From: Prasinococcaceae sp. CCMP 1430
Lineage: Eukaryota; Prasinodermophyta; Palmophyllophyceae; Prasinococcales; Prasinococcaceae
Reading direction: 5' to 3'
Assembly: GCA_013416795.1 (NCBI GenBank)
Contig: RQSC01001147.1
Coordinates: forward strand, 39,269-83,208
Length of the DNA: 43,940 nucleotides
How positions within the stretch are numbered: the first letter of the stretch is position 1; each line of letters opens with the position of its first letter. The translations under genes were made by a program, and so were the position numbers. Shown one piece after another: positions 21,047 through 43,940 of the stretch. The notes under the pieces were generated by a model. That model had not been told where the DNA came from and did no database searches. It saw only the letters and a list, made by a program, of their open reading frames with translations.

Positions 21047-21630
21047 GACTATATTGTACATATGCCAAACCTCGATTTGCCGTTGATGCGGCATACGGTA
21101 GCGAGTGATGTGCGTGCCGCCTGGCGCCGGCGAGCGATTCGCCGGGCCGCGCGCGCGGCGCGGCGGACCCACCCACCCGCCTGCTGCGCTCGCTCGCGCG
21201 CTGGCGGCCACACAGCCGCCGCGCGCATGCGGCGCGCGCGGTCGGGATTCGTTCGAATTCTCGCATGTATTCACATGGATTCCATACATTTCACCTCTTA
21301 TAGCTTGAACAAACCTATTGGGATTCGTATTTTATTTCGGGGAAGGTTTTGGATTCCACGTTGGGGCTGAGGGTTTCTCCTCCCGCCGGGGCGGCGGCTG
21401 CGGCGGCCAGCCGCCGCGCGGCGGCGCGCGTGGACCTGCCCCCCTGCAGAGATCCGAATCCCAGGTCAGTTGTAACGTTCCTCGACCGGCTCCCAGACGA
21501 AGGGGCACGCGCGCGCGCCAGCGCACCCTCTCTGCCCTCCTCCCCCCGCCGCCGCCCGGGGCGTTCCCCCACGTCACATCGTAATGCGGGGCACCCCACG
21601 ACGCCGGGCGGGCCGCGCGGCGGGCCGCGC

Positions 21631-21900
21631 ATGGTGACGCCGGCGGCGGCCAAGGCGGACGCGCGCGTCGAGGTGCAGGAAAAGGGCGCGTACGACGACC
21701 TCTCCGGCATGCTCTCGGGCGAGCGACTCAACGGGCGGCTCGCAATGGTGGGCGTGACGTGCGCACTCGTGAATGAGCTCGCCACGGGCAAAGGCATCCT
21801 CGCGCAGCTTGGCGGCTACTACACCGTCAGCGGGCTCGAGGACATCGTCAGCGCCGCGACTGAGGCCGCGGACGCTGTCCACACAGCGGCGGGCCACTGA
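21631..21900 (+). CDS. ELIP/HLIP-like one-helix light-harvesting relative (3' part certain)
   Basis: The 89 codons from the in-frame ATG at 21631 contain the chlorophyll-binding signature GERLNGRLAMVG followed by a hydrophobic helix and NELATGKGILAQLG, a combination typical of early light-inducible / high-light-inducible and LIL proteins. These bind chlorophyll and protect the thylakoid under excess light. A plastid transit peptide must precede this. The frame is open upstream to 21349 without an ATG, and residues there are Arg/Ala/Pro-rich, so one or more upstream exons are likely missing from the call. Only one membrane helix is visible, so it fits a one-helix protein or the last helix of a split gene. 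No downstream exon is needed because a TGA follows at 21898. Confidence 0.8.
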   Translation: MVTPAAAKADARVEVQEKGAYDDLSGMLSGERLNGRLAMVGVTCALVNELATGKGILAQLGGYYTVSGLEDIVSAATEAADAVHTAAGH

Positions 21901-29599: not shown

Positions 29600-31628
29600 T
29601 TACGACGATGGCGCACTGTCGTGGTGTATGGTGGGCTTGCCGTCCGGCCCCAGCTGCACGCGCACGCCCCTCCCGCGCAGCTCCCTGTCGTCGTCCGCGG
29701 CATGCAGCGCATCAAGGCCATGCAGGCGCTCGTGCGCAACGGGCGAGACCTCGCACACGTTTCTGACGCCCCACAACGCCCACTCGCGCGCCATTGGCGC
29801 CGCCTCGTCAACGCGCGTCTGAGAGAGTAGCAACTCGGCGCCGCCCACGCGCGCGAGTGCATCGGAGAGGTCCGCGCGCCCGAAGCACAGGTTGGCGAGC
29901 AGAGCGCACAGGTCGGCACGGTAGCCCACGTACGGAGCTGCGGCGGGATAGGTCTGCACAGCGCAGCGTGCGTACCGGTCAGTGAGCGCCAAGAGCGCGA
30001 GTGCACGCCCTGGCGCGTCCAAAGAGCGCGCAGGGGCGCTGAGCATGCTGCCAATGCGCCGGCGCGCGCACCTCCTCAGTACCGGTCTTTTCCGCACCGC
30101 CCGCGTACAGCGGCGCCCACGCGCTCACTGCGCGCTCTTCCAGCGGCACCGAGCCGCGCCCAGGCTGCGGCAGCGCCGCGAGCATGCGCAGCAGCAGAGC
30201 AACGCCGCGGCCGAGCTCAGGGATTGGCGCGTGCGGCAACGGCGGCGTGTCTCCACCCGCATCCGCGCGCTCGCCGGTCGCAGCCAGCGTCTCGCGCACT
30301 GCACCGCAATCCTCCCCGAGCAGCAGAGACATGCAGCCCATCGCTGCCTCCAGAGCGCGCGCATCGTCTTCGAGTACCGCGTCGATGGCATCGCCTGTGC
30401 AGACGCTCGCTGCGCTCCCGATTCGTGCCGCCGCCGCGTGCGCCTCACGCAGCAGCTCGTACGCTGAGGGCGCGTCGAAGGCAGCCGCAGCGGCCCCGAG
30501 CGTCGCGCTGGCGCTTCGGTCGGCGCGCTTGTGCAGGTGCGAGCAGAGCGCCTCGAGTACGCGCGCGGTGCCACATTGAGGCCCCGCGAGCGCGGCTGGG
30601 GTGGTCGCTAAGTCGCCGCGTGCATCCTTTCGCAGCGCTCGCAGCGCGCGCGGAAGCAGAGTGTGCTCCACACACAGCCGCCCGAAGAGGAGCTCGGCAG
30701 CGGGCCCGCACGATGCGGCAGCTGCGTGGCAGCGCGTACGCGAGGTCATGGGTTGAGGCGAGCGTCAGCCCTGTTGGCAGCGCGTTGCACCAGAGAAGCA
30801 CACGGACGAGGACACGCGCCTGAGAACAGTCAAGTGTGCGCGCCCCGACGCACCTCTGAGCGCTCGCGCATCATCACAGAGCGCCTCGGCATGGGCTGTG
30901 CTTGCGCCCACCGCCGCGTGTGCCGCAAGCGCAGCCGCCTCGCGCGCTCCAGCGTCGTCGCACTCGAGCAGCGCTACGGCTGGTGCCACGGCGCAGGAGT
31001 CCAAGCAAACGCCTCCGCCATCCCCGACTGGCTTGAAGGCAACCTCCCACAGCGCAGACATGTCGCTCGCTGCAGCGCTTGCGGCTGCAGCCGTGAATGC
31101 GTTTGCGAGTGCCTGCGCGGCTGCGCGCGCGCACTGCCGTGTCTCATCTACGGCGGACCTCGCACCGTCCTCGGGCGCAGGTGCGCACGGCACGGGCGCA
31201 TCAAGGCGTCTCACACGCACACATTCCTCGGCCGCGAGCTCCGCGACCGCACGCGCGAGACCGCAGTGTGCACTGGCCGCTGCCTCCGCCGCCACCGACA
31301 GCGCGTTGCGAGCGACGCGTAGCAGCGCGAGCCGGAGCGGCGCGGCGGCCACCGCGCACGCGCTCGCAAGGTGCGAGTCACCGACATGGGTCTCACTCGT
31401 CGCGGACGCGCGCACAAGAGAGGCTCGGAGCGCATCCACGAGCGCCGCATGCGCGCTGCTGCTTCCGCGTGCCGCCTCATGCCAGCCGCCGCTGGCGGCG
31501 GCCCCACGCACGGCCGCCGCCGCCGAGGCGGCGCGCGAGCGAGTGACGCCGTCCTCTCCCGCGTCAGCGCCCGCTCGCACCACGGTGGACGCCGCAAGGA
31601 GCGCCTCCTCGAGTGTGCCTGGCGCCAT
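29600..31628 (-). CDS. ATXN10: Ataxin-10 homologue
   Basis: Minus-strand exons are 31628-30854, 30721-30109 and 30047-29600. Introns are 132 bases (phase 1, GTGCG...CGCAG) and 61 bases (phase 2, GTACG...GGCAG), giving 611 residues. The C-terminal exon carries the ataxin-10 domain: YVGYRADLCALLANLCFG, LSQTRVDEAAPMAREWALWG and VRNVCE, matching the order GxRxDLvrLLgNLCy...PflxEWaixaiRNl of animal and fungal ataxin-10. The rest is alpha-helical, armadillo-like and very Ala-rich. Human ataxin-10 is 475 residues, so this one is long. The family is implicated in cell division and, in animals, cilium and neurite functions; the role here is unknown. The second intron boundary is less sure than the first. 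A 34-base GT-AG alternative exists inside the first intron but leads to a stop. Confidence 0.82.
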
Positions 31629-31801
31629 GACGCCCCACACTCGCCCGCTGCCACCGCGGCGAGCGCGCGCTCTGCCACGCACCTGTGCACACGCGCACGC
31701 GGGCGCACACTCGGAACCCCGCGAGAGTGCGCGCTGGATTGCCGGCGCTCGGCTAGCTCACTTACGTACGCACTAGGCCAGCGCCACGTGCGCGATCGCG
31801 C

Positions 31802-35938: not shown

Positions 35939-36596
35939 TTAGATTCCGCCTTCGCTGTACACCTCGATCTTGAAGACGGTGGCGAAGTCGGCGTAGCCCG
36001 CGCCGATGACAAATTTGAGGAAGCGCGCCTTCAGGCGGGACACCTTGTGCGACTCGATTTGCTTCCCCGCCGAGCCCTTGTCCGCGAGCTCGACGTCGAA
36101 GAGCTTCTCGAAGCCCTGCAAGCACAGGTGAAGGCGCGCAATGGCGCGCTCAGGCGTAAGCGCTCGAACTCGTGCATTCGAGCTCGGCCACCATGCGCGC
36201 ATGCACGCGCGTGGGTGGGCGTACCTTGGGCGACGACTGTGTGCTGAATTCCAAGCCCAGCCGGCGCACTCCAGACGTCACTGTGCGCACCTTGGAAATG
36301 CTCACCTGTGCGCCAGCGGGCAGTTGCGCCGGGGGGGGGTGGTCCCAATGCGACCACGCATGTCAGAGGCGTGCGCTCGCGGCCTGCGTTCGTTCGTGCC
36401 AGCGCGGCCAGACACAGCGGCAGGCGCAACATACCTCCTTTGGGAGCGCGATGACCAGCTCCTGCGGGAACAGGCCCGTAGTCATCCAGAAGGTCGACTC
36501 GGTACCATCGAGCGTATTCTCCGGCGGATGGTGCTCGTCGGCGCACGTGGCCGCAGCGATCGACGAGCCCGCGGCCGCGAGCGCGACGTCCGTCAT
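35939..36596 (-). CDS. IFT25: Intraflagellar transport protein 25 (HSPB11)
   Basis: Three minus-strand exons, 36596-36435, 36305-36225 and 36115-35939, with two phase-0 introns (129 bases GTATG...ACAG; 109 bases GTACG...GCAG) give 139 residues. This is close to the human protein. Diagnostic blocks are DEHHPPENTLDGTESTFWMT and TGLFPQELVIALPK in exon 1, VSISKVRTVTSGVRRLGLEF in exon 2 and FEKLFDVELADKGS plus LRARFLKFVI-like strands in exon 3 (jelly-roll, galactose-binding-like fold). IFT25 pairs with IFT27 in the IFT-B complex and acts in transport in cilia, so the organism is flagellated at some stage. The start codon follows an A/G-poor leader. The gene is divergent from the CNB protein (571 bases) and convergent with DRG1 (191 bases). 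Confidence 0.93.
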
Positions 36597-37167
36597 GGCT
36601 GGGTGCTCGCGGGTCAGCGCGGCGCAGTCCCGCTGACGAGCGGATGCAAACTCACCCGCTCGCCGGCCGGACTGCTGGCCCGACTGCGCCTGCACGCTCC
36701 CACACCTCTCCGCGCGCGGCGCGAGGGGCTCAGGCTCGAAGCGGCGGCGCCGCGCTGCCCCCGCCGCCGCCGCCGCGCCGAGCGCCGTGTGCCGCCCGCG
36801 GGCGTCGGCGCGCGCCGGCGGCGTTCCCCGTTCAAAGCTTCGCCGCAAACGTGCGGAAAACGCACCCGCGAAAGCGGGCGCAAATGCGACTCCGCACGTT
36901 GGGCTTCGGGTTCACTTTAGGTTCAAAATCTGCTCATAATATACCACGGGCGAGCGCGCGGTACGCCGGGTGCCAGCGGGGGGGAGGGGGGGACGCGAAC
37001 GAGCACAGGGCGACGAATGCGGACGCGGCGCGCCGAGTTCCCCGCGTGTGGGCGCACGCGGGTGCGCGCGCCACACTCGGCAGCGCCCGCGGAGGGCCGT
37101 CGAGGGGGTAGGGTGGTAGGCCCTACCCCCTCGCCGGGGGGCGGGGAGAAGGGTAGGGGGGGGAACC
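36597..37167. promoter_or_regulatory. Divergent promoter region of IFT25 and CNB gene with nested hairpin
   Basis: This region holds a nested inverted repeat (36848-36900) and a local AT-rich stretch (36906-36945, CACTTTAGGTTCAAAATC...CATAATATACC), which are the most promoter-like signals between the two start codons. Purine-rich G runs follow towards the CNB gene. Confidence 0.5.
36848..36900. other. Nested inverted repeat
   Basis: The outer arms AACGTGCGG (36848-36856) and CCGCACGTT (36892-36900) pair perfectly. Inside lies a second perfect hairpin, CCCGC-GAAA-GCGGG (36865-36878). It could be a cruciform or a paired binding site for a regulator of both divergent genes. Confidence 0.75.
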
Positions 37168-39246
37168 ATGGGCGCTTCGGTGAGCTGCGCAAGTGGCAGA
37201 CTCAGCATGGTCGATATGACAGGTTGCGCGAGTGGGCTCAATGCCAAGTTGCGCCGCAAGCGCGGCGGCGTGTACTCGCCAGAGTCGCCAGCCTCGCCGG
37301 CGAGCCCGTTCAGCCCGGCGAGCTTCAGCAGCGGCTCCCTGAGCCCTTCGATGAAGCGCGCCCAGGGCCGCTCCCCGAGCCGCCTTACGTTGGGGTCCCA
37401 GACGCGCCAACGCCTCACACGAGCGCTGGATGAAAGCTTCGTATTCAGCAGCTTGCCAGCTGAACACAGACAGGCGCTTCTGCAGTGCATGTTCGAGCAC
37501 AGCGTCGATCAGGGCGAGGAGGTGATCCGCGAGGGGGAGGATGGCGATCACTTTTACTTGGTAGATAGCGGCGAGCTCGAGGTGCGCGTGAGTGAGGACG
37601 ACGGCGCGACCCGTGCTGTTTTCGCGCTCACCTCGGGTTCGTGCCTGGGCGAGCTCGCCACGCTCTACGCGTGCCCGCGCACGTGCTCGGTGGTCGCCAA
37701 GACGGCGAGCGTGCTGTGGGCGCTGGATACGGAAGTCTTCCGCACGTTCGCCATGGATGCAGTTCGAGCCAAGCGCGAGCGCTACGACGACCTGCTACAG
37801 CAGGTGCCGCTCTTTCGCGAGCTTGAGAGCTACGAGCGTGCATTCATCATTGACTCGCTACAAACTGCCGACTTCGGCGCGGGCGAGATAATCGTCACCG
37901 AGGGCGACGCGGGAGACCGCTTTTACCTGCTGGAGCTGGGTGAGGCGGTGGCATCCAAGCAACAGCGGACGGGCGCGCCACTCGAGGTGTCGCGCTACGG
38001 CCCCGCGAGTTTCTTCGGCGAGCTGGGACTGCTGTTGGACCAGCCACGGCAGGCGACCGTCACCGCCGTGCGTCGATGCCGCACAGCGTTCATCGATCGG
38101 TCCCGCTTCTCGCAGCTTCTGGCCGGGGGGAAGCTCAAGGCGCTCATGCTCGCTCAGGCGCGCGAGTACCAGCGCGTCAACGAGGAGAATACCGCGCGCG
38201 AGCGCGAGAAGGAAGGGCGCAAGCGGGAGAAGAAAGAGCGTCGGCGCGCAGCAAAGGACAGGGAGAGCAGGCACAGGGACAAGCGGAAAGACAGGGGCAG
38301 GGACGGCGACCAAGACCATCGCGGTGGCAGCAGCCGCAGCTCATCGCGAAGGGAGACCAGCCGGCCATTGCCGTCCCGGTCTAGCAAGTCGCACTCCAGT
38401 CACTCGGGGCGCGCGTTCGACAAGAGGAAGCGCGTCGGACCGCGCGGCGAGACGCGCCGCCTGCGAATCTCCAATGCTCTTTGCGAATGTGCCGCCTTCA
38501 ACGGCCTTCGGCAGGATGAGGTCCTCTCAATCGTCGACAAAACGTACGAGCTGCTACTGCCGCCGGGACACGACGTCATGACGCAAGGCGCACCAGGACA
38601 CGAGATGTATGTACTCGAAGCGGGTGAGCTGGACGTCTTCGAGGAGGACAAGGAAACCGGCGAACGCAGGGCGGTGAACCGCCTCAAGAGCGGCGCCGTG
38701 CTGGGCGAAGTCGCGCTGATAGATCCTGGCAGCGCCCGCGAGGCGACTGTGCGCGCTACCGCCAATGGCGCACGGCTATGGACGCTCGCACACAAGGACT
38801 TCTTCGAGATCGCAGGCGCTCACATCACAGCCAAACGCGTCGTCTACGTGAACTTCCTTTCGAAGGTGCCCATGTTCGACGGCATCGATGAGTGTGCCAT
38901 GAAGCAGATGGCGGACGCGATGACGCCCGCGTACTACGCAGACGGCGAGGCCATCGTGCGGCAGGGCGAGGCGGGCGAGGCCTTCTTTGTGCTGGAGCAC
39001 GGTCAGGCGGTAGCGACAGTCCTGCCGCCGGGCCAAGACGCGGCGGTCGAAGTGATGCGGTATGACAAAAAGGGGCAGTTCTTCGGCGAGCTCGCGCTGC
39101 TGACAGACACCACGCGGAAGGCGTCAGTGCACGCTGTGGGCCCCGCAAAGTTCGCGCGCATGGACCGCGCTGCATTCAAGAGGCTCACCGCGCGCATAGC
39201 AAGCCTGCGAGAGATGCTGGAGGGCGCGCAGGCCAACTACGCGTGA
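37168..39246 (+). CDS. Four-CNB cyclic-nucleotide-binding protein without catalytic domain
   Basis: This intronless protein of 692 residues has four cyclic-nucleotide-binding domains in two pairs (about 86-205, 210-330, 430-550, 555-680). A Ser/Pro-rich leader precedes them, and an extremely Lys/Arg/Ser-rich linker (about 335-425) separates the pairs. Each phosphate-binding cassette is visible with its Glu and Arg: CLGELATLYACPRTCS, FFGELGLLLDQPRQAT, LGEVALIDPGSAREAT and FFGELALLTDTTRKAS. The N-terminus MGASVSCASG fits N-myristoylation plus palmitoylation and so membrane attachment. There is no kinase, channel or dimerisation domain. It resembles a duplicated PKA regulatory subunit or the regulatory half of a PKG. 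It may regulate a separate kinase or act as a cyclic-nucleotide scaffold. An RRxS-type inhibitor site was not identified with certainty. It is divergent from IFT25, so a flagellar role is possible. Confidence 0.9.
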   Translation: MGASVSCASGRLSMVDMTGCASGLNAKLRRKRGGVYSPESPASPASPFSPASFSSGSLSPSMKRAQGRSPSRLTLGSQTRQRLTRALDESFVFSSLPAEHRQALLQCMFEHSVDQGEEVIREGEDGDHFYLVDSGELEVRVSEDDGATRAVFALTSGSCLGELATLYACPRTCSVVAKTASVLWALDTEVFRTFAMDAVRAKRERYDDLLQQVPLFRELESYERAFIIDSLQTADFGAGEIIVTEGDAGDRFYLLELGEAVASKQQRTGAPLEVSRYGPASFFGELGLLLDQPRQATVTAVRRCRTAFIDRSRFSQLLAGGKLKALMLAQAREYQRVNEENTAREREKEGRKREKKERRRAAKDRESRHRDKRKDRGRDGDQDHRGGSSRSSSRRETSRPLPSRSSKSHSSHSGRAFDKRKRVGPRGETRRLRISNALCECAAFNGLRQDEVLSIVDKTYELLLPPGHDVMTQGAPGHEMYVLEAGELDVFEEDKETGERRAVNRLKSGAVLGEVALIDPGSAREATVRATANGARLWTLAHKDFFEIAGAHITAKRVVYVNFLSKVPMFDGIDECAMKQMADAMTPAYYADGEAIVRQGEAGEAFFVLEHGQAVATVLPPGQDAAVEVMRYDKKGQFFGELALLTDTTRKASVHAVGPAKFARMDRAAFKRLTARIASLREMLEGAQANYA

Positions 39247-41499: not shown

Positions 41500-43107
41500 A
41501 TGTCGACGCACGCTCTATGCGCCCTGGACGCCGCCAGCGGCGCGCCGCTCCTCGCGCGCTCACGAAGATGCACAGCCCCGTGGAGCCGCCGCACAGCACC
41601 GAGCGCCACCAGGCCGCGCTGCTCGGCGCCGTGCAGCGCGCCGCTGCGCACGCGGGCGGGAGCGGGCGCGCGCTGGAGCGCGCGGACTGCGGTGGGGGCA
41701 GGGAGGTCGTTATGGACCCCGATGCTACCGCGGAGCTCGTCTTCGCTGTGGGGGCCCGTGGCGCCTCGGGCAGCGGCCGGTGCGCATCCGAGCACGCGCT
41801 CGCGGAAGCCAAGCGCCTCGTCGCGGCGCTGCTCGGAGGTGGCGCGCTCGCTGAGGCGCAGAGGCAGGGCAACGGGGGTTCGTTGGCGCGAAAGGCGCTG
41901 CGTCGGGTGGCTGGCGTTGTGGACGGTGCCATCACGCACAGAGGTGACGCTGCCGCAGACGCCTCGGCTGCGGCGCCAGCGCTTCTCGGAGCGCCGCGGA
42001 TCCGGCTCGCCAGCGTGGAGGCGGTCGCCTCGGCACGGTGCGTTGTGCGCGGAGGTTCTGCGCCGCTCGCCCGGTGCCTGGCACTCAAAGCATGCAGCAG
42101 CATTGCGCATAACCTCACTCTAGGCTCGCCAGTGTGCGCGTGCGGAATGCCGCTTCTGACGTCGCCCGTCCCAACACGTTCGCGCGCCGATCCAGGAATC
42201 GCTTGGACGCGCTCGCGGCTCGCGCCGGCGTCCGCCACGCAGCGCTCCTGAATGGTGGCGACCTGGTCGCAGCCACACCTTCCTGGTGGCGGTTGGGCGG
42301 CGGTGACCTGAGCGAACCCGAACTCCTGCAGTCCCTGCTGCGCGGGCTGGCGGCACTGCCGGATGGCGCGGCTGCGCGTGACTTGCCCGTCTTCCTGCCT
42401 GCCACGGCGCCGCATGCGCCATTGCGGCTCTTGGTGATTCGCCTGGCGGGAGAGCTCGAGCTCGCCGCACTCGCAGGCCCCAAGCCCTCGCTCGAAGGAC
42501 TGCGGGCAGCGGCGACGGAGGAGCTTGGAGGTGGCAAGGTGCGTGTGCGCGTCCAGCCAGCGCGCGCCCCCATTATGTGCTTTGTAGGCGTGGGTCGTCC
42601 ACCCCCGAGTGCGCAGCCTACATGCTTACACGGCGCGCGCGGGGCGCACAGTGGGACTACGCGTCGCTGCTCAAGCGGGGCTGCGGAGTCAACATAGGCA
42701 CAAGCAAGGGTATCCCGCAGAGCGGTGTGTGCTTCGTAGCGCGCGCAGGCGGCTGCGTGGTCGCGCACGCGGGCTCGGGCGCGGGTGACGCCGCCGAGGC
42801 AGCTGAGGATGAGCTGTGGGCATTCGTGCGACGCGCGGCTGCTTTTGGCGCGGGCGATGTGTCCTGTGGCGAGGAGGGCCTGCAAAGCGTCGCGGACCGC
42901 CCCAACCTACGCGTGCGCATGATGGAGTTGCCGACCGAGAGTGCGCAAACGTGCGTGTGCGCGGTGCTCGAGGAGGTCAACGGCGACGGCGTGGCCTTCG
43001 TGGCTTTGCCAACCCGCGATGCCGCCACAGACGCGGTGCTGGCTGCAGGCACCGAAGCGCTGCGGCAGGCGCGAGCCGCTGCATCTGCCGCTGGCGCTAG
43101 GCCGTGA
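41500..43107 (+). CDS. FUZ: Fuzzy (FUZ) homologue, CPLANE ciliogenesis protein
   Basis: Exons are 41500-42037 (with a break), 42124-42538 and 42652-43107. The introns are 42038-42123 (86 bases, phase 2) and 42539-42651 (113 bases, phase 0), giving about 463 residues. The beginning ALCALDAASGAPLLARS matches the FUZ longin-domain start (C-L-A-A-S-S-G-V-P-L-F-C-R-S). The middle block has AALLNGGDLVAATPSWWRLG, AARDLPVFLPATAPHAPLRL and LAGPKPSLEGL, in the same order as vertebrate FUZ. In animals FUZ, INTU and WDPCP form the CPLANE complex, which loads ciliary cargo and activates RAB23. Exon 1 is interrupted: the frame shifts between LLARS (frame 1) and TERHQAALLGAV (frame 0). A 17-base GT-AG segment (41580-41596) would restore it, but a one-base assembly error is equally likely. 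Start Met at 41500 is certain from the homology. Confidence 0.85.
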
Positions 43108-43221: not shown

Positions 43222-43940
43222 TCACGGCCACTCTGTGAACTGGAAAACCTTGAGCACGATCTCCCAGCCGGTAGGCACCTGCCAGAGGAACAGCCCCACG
43301 TTGATCGAGTTCAGCGCGATGTGGGCCGAACGCGCGTTGTCGTTGCCCCTCTGCATGGCGGGCGTGAGCGCAGCAGCCAGGGCCCACAAGATCACGATGG
43401 ACGCACCCGCGAAAAGGTGCGGGCCCGGGAAGAGCTTGCCCACGCGCATGTACGTGTTCATGGCGCCCTCGATTCCTAGCAGCACGCCGCCACCGAGCAA
43501 GATGGAGCCCGCGTTGAAGTGACGGTCACGGAAGTTGCCCGACGAGAGCTCCTTGCGCTTGGCCTTGAGCTCGTCCATCTCCTTCGACAGCGACTTGTAC
43601 TCCGCTGACTCCTCGTCCTCAGGCATCTTCGCTTTGACCGCCTTGATGTCATCGCCCAGCGTGCGCAGCGAGCGCCACTGCAGGCCGGTGTAGCCGGCCC
43701 ACAGCGTGAGCCCGAGCGCGGCGGCCAAGCCGATAGGGTGCACGAGCGCGACGGAGCGGCCGGCGAGGATGCCGTAGTCCTCGCGGCCGGCGGCGTGGGC
43801 CACATCGGCGCCGGCGAACATGTCCACCATCGCGAGGGACATGGCCGCGGCGCCCATGTCGAGCGCCGAGGGCGCGCTCTCCTCCTGCTGCTGCTCCGCC
43901 GCCTTTGCCGGCGCCGCCGCGGCGCGCCGCGCGCGCGCCG
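43222..43940 (-). CDS. DUF4079 thylakoid membrane protein (5' end outside window)
   Basis: The minus-strand frame is open from the window edge to a TGA at 43222-43224. From the first in-window Met at 43857 it encodes 211 residues. Features are HPIGLAAALGLTLWAGYTGLQW (helix 1), a charged coiled stretch KAVKAKMPEDEESAEYKSL and the family core NFRDRHFNAGSILLGGG. After these come further helices with GPHLFAGASIVILWALAAAL, and SAHIALNSINVGLFLWQVPTGW. This matches the DUF4079 family of cyanobacteria and plastids (four membrane helices, function unknown). The upstream sequence (PAKAAEQQQEESAPSALD) is open and Ala-rich, fitting the end of a plastid targeting leader that continues beyond the window. 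The stop lies 114 bases from the convergent FUZ stop; a (TA)n run sits between them at 43172-43185. Confidence 0.88.
   Translation of the reverse strand, partial: ARARRAAAAPAKAAEQQQEESAPSALDMGAAAMSLAMVDMFAGADVAHAAGREDYGILAGRSVALVHPIGLAAALGLTLWAGYTGLQWRSLRTLGDDIKAVKAKMPEDEESAEYKSLSKEMDELKAKRKELSSGNFRDRHFNAGSILLGGGVLLGIEGAMNTYMRVGKLFPGPHLFAGASIVILWALAAALTPAMQRGNDNARSAHIALNSINVGLFLWQVPTGWEIVLKVFQFTEWP

Follow-up and report, generated by a model that had tools for sequence, protein, structure and literature searches.

The 43,940-nucleotide stretch of DNA analyzed here (the window) contains a gene that is very probably the algal orthologue, albeit diverged, of FUZ. Exon 2, which encodes the second longin domain, matches the Pfam profile Fuz_longin_2 (PF19037), a profile spanning FUZ, MON1, and HPS1, with 28.0 bits at a curated cut-off of 23.8. 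Its Smith–Waterman alignment to human FUZ, for which we used a query in letter-for-letter agreement with 7q3d, scores 159; none of 2000 shuffled sequences (mean 29.6, SD 5.2) reached this value, and among all six frames of the window, exon 2 is the place where human FUZ scores highest.

Identity of the gene

In the PDB, the joined protein is matched best by mouse FUZ (7q3e, E = 1.5e-11) and human FUZ (7q3d and 9rs8, E = 7.7e-11). The matches after these FUZ chains are unrelated and have E values of at least 0.17, the first of them being a spidroin at 0.17. At E ≤ 10, HPS1 chains gave no match to the window protein in this comparison, which was one of sequence only. The sequence-only reading had named a match to MON1, CCZ1, or HPS1/4 longin proteins surpassing that to FUZ as evidence against its assignment; the search came out in favor of FUZ.

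Given that the two have Pfam domains in common, one could take the gene for MON1, which is a subunit of the Rab7 exchange factor, or for a recent duplicate of it, but we regard this as very improbable. No MON1 chain matches the window protein at E ≤ 10, whereas a distinct MON1 gene occurs on another contig of the genome (G000:C75:400126–400497), which scores 90.6 bits to Fuz_longin_1 and reaches MON1 chains in the PDB at E = 8.2e-30; the window gene is thus not the MON1 of this alga. The reverse search agrees with this assignment: with human FUZ as query, the window protein is found at 48 bits, while the genome's own MON1 is passed over. Judged by sequence, FUZ and MON1 are both present in the genome as distinct paralogues.

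Gene model, frame change, and the outer longin domains

The features of the gene and of the genes relevant to it are collected in Table 1. A scan of codon usage, with eight intact neighboring reading frames as the training set, revealed a coding signal in four blocks. The first, short and weak, begins at the ATG (41500) and runs in frame 0 to about 41560; the second continues in frame 2 up to 42037; the third occupies frame 1 between about 42124 and 42538; and the fourth, in frame 0 again, reaches the stop codon at 43105–43107. Both candidate acceptors of intron 2, at 42609 and 42651, keep the frame, and the one that is used sets the length of the spliced product at between about 468 and 482 residues.

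Table 1. Features of the FUZ gene, its neighbors, and the RAB23 gene
Feature	Position	Strand	Basis or remark
FUZ gene, ATG to stop	41500..43107	+	Pfam, PDB, codon statistics
ATG and longin domain 1 strand 1 (MSTHALCALDAASGAPLLARS)	41500..41562	+	frame 0; human FUZ alignment
Frame change of one base (−1) inside exon 1	41559..41567	+	codon statistics; no GT around
Exon 1 remainder (rest of putative longin domain 1 and linker)	41565..42037	+	frame 2; codon statistics, position and spacing
Intron 1, GTGCG...CTCTAG, 86 bases, phase 2	42038..42123	+	splice signals, codon statistics
Exon 2, longin domain 2, with VAATPSWWRLG and ARDLPVFLP (FUZ signature)	42124..42538	+	Pfam, PDB, alignment
Intron 2, phase 0	42539..42651	+	donor 42539 (AAG|GTGCGTG); acceptor 42651 or 42609
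Exon 3, putative longin domain 3 and stop	42652..43107	+	codon statistics; low-confidence model
IFT25, three exons (36596-36435, 36305-36225, 36115-35939)	35939..36596	−	Chlamydomonas IFT25 match
Protein of ~700 aa, four cyclic-nucleotide-binding domains in two pairs	37120-39243	+	between IFT25 and FUZ
DUF4079 protein, cyanobacterial/plastid type	43225..43938	−	downstream neighbor, other strand
RAB23	G000:C22:2144-2686		58% identity to human RAB23

All the blocks that the sequence-only reading had quoted were found on the plus strand, CALDAASGAPLLARS at 41518–41562, VAATPSWWRLG at 42266–42298, and ARDLPVFLPATAPHAPLRLL at 42374–42433, the latter two sharing one exon (42124–42538). Its further claim, that two introns rebuild the gene in phase, stood in part: both introns do join in phase, but from about 41560 the rest of exon 1 is out of frame with the first block.

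According to the codon statistics, this change from frame 0 to frame 2 occurs just past the first longin strand. Since there is no GT dinucleotide in 41503–41579, it is not a canonical intron, and splicing across it was ruled out. It may result from an assembly error, a mutation, or a frameshift, a one-base assembly error being the simplest reading, and it means that the gene as assembled could be damaged. A one-base change within exon 1 that lacks any intron signal is what a pseudogene would display if the lesion were genuine and the gene decaying. We nevertheless consider this unlikely, since the downstream frames are open and show coding-type codon usage, the two introns are in phase, and the motifs are conserved; moreover, a single lesion beside conserved sequence is just how one assembly error is expected to look. 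The frame 2 block also has an ATG of its own at 41568 that can open an intact frame, but a start there loses the conserved first strand.

That first strand is well supported by comparison with human FUZ. Block 1 scores 51 against strand 1 of the human protein, a value reached by none of 2000 shuffles (mean 18.5, SD 4.0), and no other place in the window scores above 36. Past strand 1, longin domain 1 (PF19036) gave no Pfam match and no significant in-register similarity to human FUZ, and the same holds for longin domain 3. In order and length, both candidate domains fit FUZ, and we infer both in the algal protein. AlphaFold models from single sequences had pLDDT values of 46 for exon 2 and 42 for exon 3; because exon 2, the control, failed as well, these models test nothing. 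The predicted order of elements in exon 3 (strand, strand, helix, three strands, helix) is of the longin type and can be taken as only a hint. Searches with this pLDDT 42 model using Foldseek and VIA-align yielded no credible match, with a best E value of 0.33 and a top Z score of 5.9, for SRP14.

Host, neighborhood, and CPLANE partners

Plastid psaA and psaB genes are present in the 24.5 Mb assembly, which bears out the earlier description of the host as photosynthetic; the G+C content of the window is about 68%. Two psaB genes both score best against photosystem I chains that we take to be moss and green-alga entries, and lower against red-lineage chains, and this comparison suggests that the host is most likely a green alga. 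Scaffold G000:C136 carries two different psaA–psaB pairs (257894–262284 and 339070–343432), both green-type, with proteins that are 83–84% identical and local G+C contents of about 35% and 40%. Runs of N lie between the psaA–psaB stretches, and nuclear-type DNA (about 64–74% G+C) extends to at least 200 kb; the pattern suggests scaffold chimerism or a mixed culture. On contig G000:C24, around and after the end of the window, runs of N make up about 3.3 kb of 4.5 kb.

With two green-type psaA–psaB pairs on one scaffold, the assembly may be partly mixed, and contamination of the FUZ contig from an animal or another protist has to be weighed. This too is highly improbable: the FUZ gene agrees with its neighbors in G+C content and codon usage, these neighbors include the plastid-type DUF4079 gene and an LHC-like protein, and the IFT25 encoded on the same contig is closest to that of Chlamydomonas.

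The proximity of an IFT25 gene to FUZ, noted in the initial reading, was confirmed. The encoded protein is closest in the PDB to Chlamydomonas IFT25 (2yc2, E = 2.2e-33), and its gene lies 4.9 kb upstream of FUZ. Between the two genes, the protein with four cyclic-nucleotide-binding domains has no further Pfam domain and is possibly another flagellar signaling protein; a second reading frame there gave no match in a Pfam search. Twelve matches to dynein heavy chain D6 were found in the genome, and they argue for motile flagella. The earlier designation of the organism as a flagellate is supported by ciliary genes only, namely IFT25 and the dynein matches. By eye, two further features can be discerned in the window: ataxin-10-like reading frames at 29603–31757 on the minus strand (ALWGVRNVCEVSP; the single frame searched against Pfam was without a match) and, at 21304–21897 on the plus strand, a C-terminus of the LHC-like or early-light-induced type (ERLNGRLAMVGV).

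A search of the rest of the genome for RAB23, as had been suggested, yielded one clear gene. Its product scores 178 bits in comparison with human RAB23, the next Rab scoring 115 bits, and in the PDB it matches Rab23 with 180 bits, followed by Ypt7 with 105. Tri-longin exchange factors need a tyrosine–lysine (Y-K) pair in their substrate Rabs (PMC12383261). The switch 1 sequence of the algal protein, YKKTIGVDFLER, is identical to that of the solved Rab23 and includes this pair. An insertion in the gene, around SVEDGGEEGEDGKR, precedes the final portion of the G domain; the 3′ end of the gene model is provisional.

In animals, FUZ partners INTU. Genome searches with PF19031, PF19032, and PF19033 found no INTU, nor did a query with human INTU. 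CCZ1, expected in the genome as the companion of MON1, falls under these three profiles too, and since they missed it as well, the negative results for INTU say nothing. The genome search for WDPCP with PF11768 was likewise empty and was run without a positive control. The missing INTU matches might be read as a sign that FUZ on its own, or paired with CCZ1, forms a simpler and ancestral exchange factor that needs no INTU; as the same profiles failed with CCZ1, we consider this unlikely. We think it equally unlikely that green algae keep a FUZ–RAB23 switch without INTU and WDPCP, for example with CCZ1 as the second subunit. If true, such a switch would represent an ancestral form of the complex predating the CPLANE of animal type.

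Proposed role and comparison with known systems

Human FUZ and INTU use their first longin domains to open RAB23 so that GTP can be loaded, and their complex acts at the cilium (PMC6864590, PMC12383261). By orthology, algal FUZ would be the MON1-like half of a tri-longin Rab exchange factor, which together with an INTU-like partner would load RAB23 near the basal body; the activated RAB23 could then guide the delivery of membrane and IFT cargo to the flagellum. We regard activation of RAB23 at the flagellar base as the probable function of algal FUZ. The proposal rests on the FUZ identity of domain 2, the separate MON1, the Y-K pair in switch 1 of RAB23, IFT25, and the dyneins; the INTU partner, the exchange activity, and the cellular location of algal FUZ would follow by analogy with the animal system.

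CPLANE has been stated to be metazoan-only (PMC10193976), and the origin of Fuzzy has been placed in the common ancestor of choanoflagellates and animals, Fuzzy not having been retrieved in Capsaspora, chytrid fungi, or Dictyostelium (PMC4818920). In contrast, the presence of RAB23, with its link to cilia, in the last eukaryotic common ancestor is already accepted (PMC3425129); its activator had been thought younger. Among the papers searched, none reported an algal FUZ, and sequence databases may already hold automated annotations of FUZ in protists. The gene described here argues for an origin of FUZ older than the choanoflagellate–animal ancestor. That a green alga encodes both a FUZ orthologue and RAB23 suggests an activator as ancient as the switch it acts on, and a cilium trafficking switch that greatly predates the animals. 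The alga also provides a photosynthetic, single-celled setting for studying the role of FUZ in the absence of Hedgehog signaling or tissue polarity. As the family was already known, the advance lies in the host lineage and in the extension across a deep split; the kind of system is unchanged.

Among the known systems, HPS1 of BLOC-3, a complex described as metazoan-unique (PMC12383261), belongs to the same Pfam domain family as the window gene and differs in that it does not match the window protein at E ≤ 10. MON1 is a member of the same tri-longin family and likewise has the Fuz_longin domains of Pfam, but the alga's MON1 is encoded elsewhere, and the window protein does not match MON1 chains. 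From human and mouse FUZ (7q3d, 7q3e, and 9rs8), the algal gene is set apart by its green algal host, by the frame change in exon 1, and by domains 1 and 3, which have diverged too far for sequence detection. With these proteins it nevertheless shares VAAT..WWRLG and ARD.PV.LP..P..P.RLL in domain 2, strand 1 of domain 1 (SG.PL..RS), the overall order, and a similar size, about 470 residues in the alga compared with 418.
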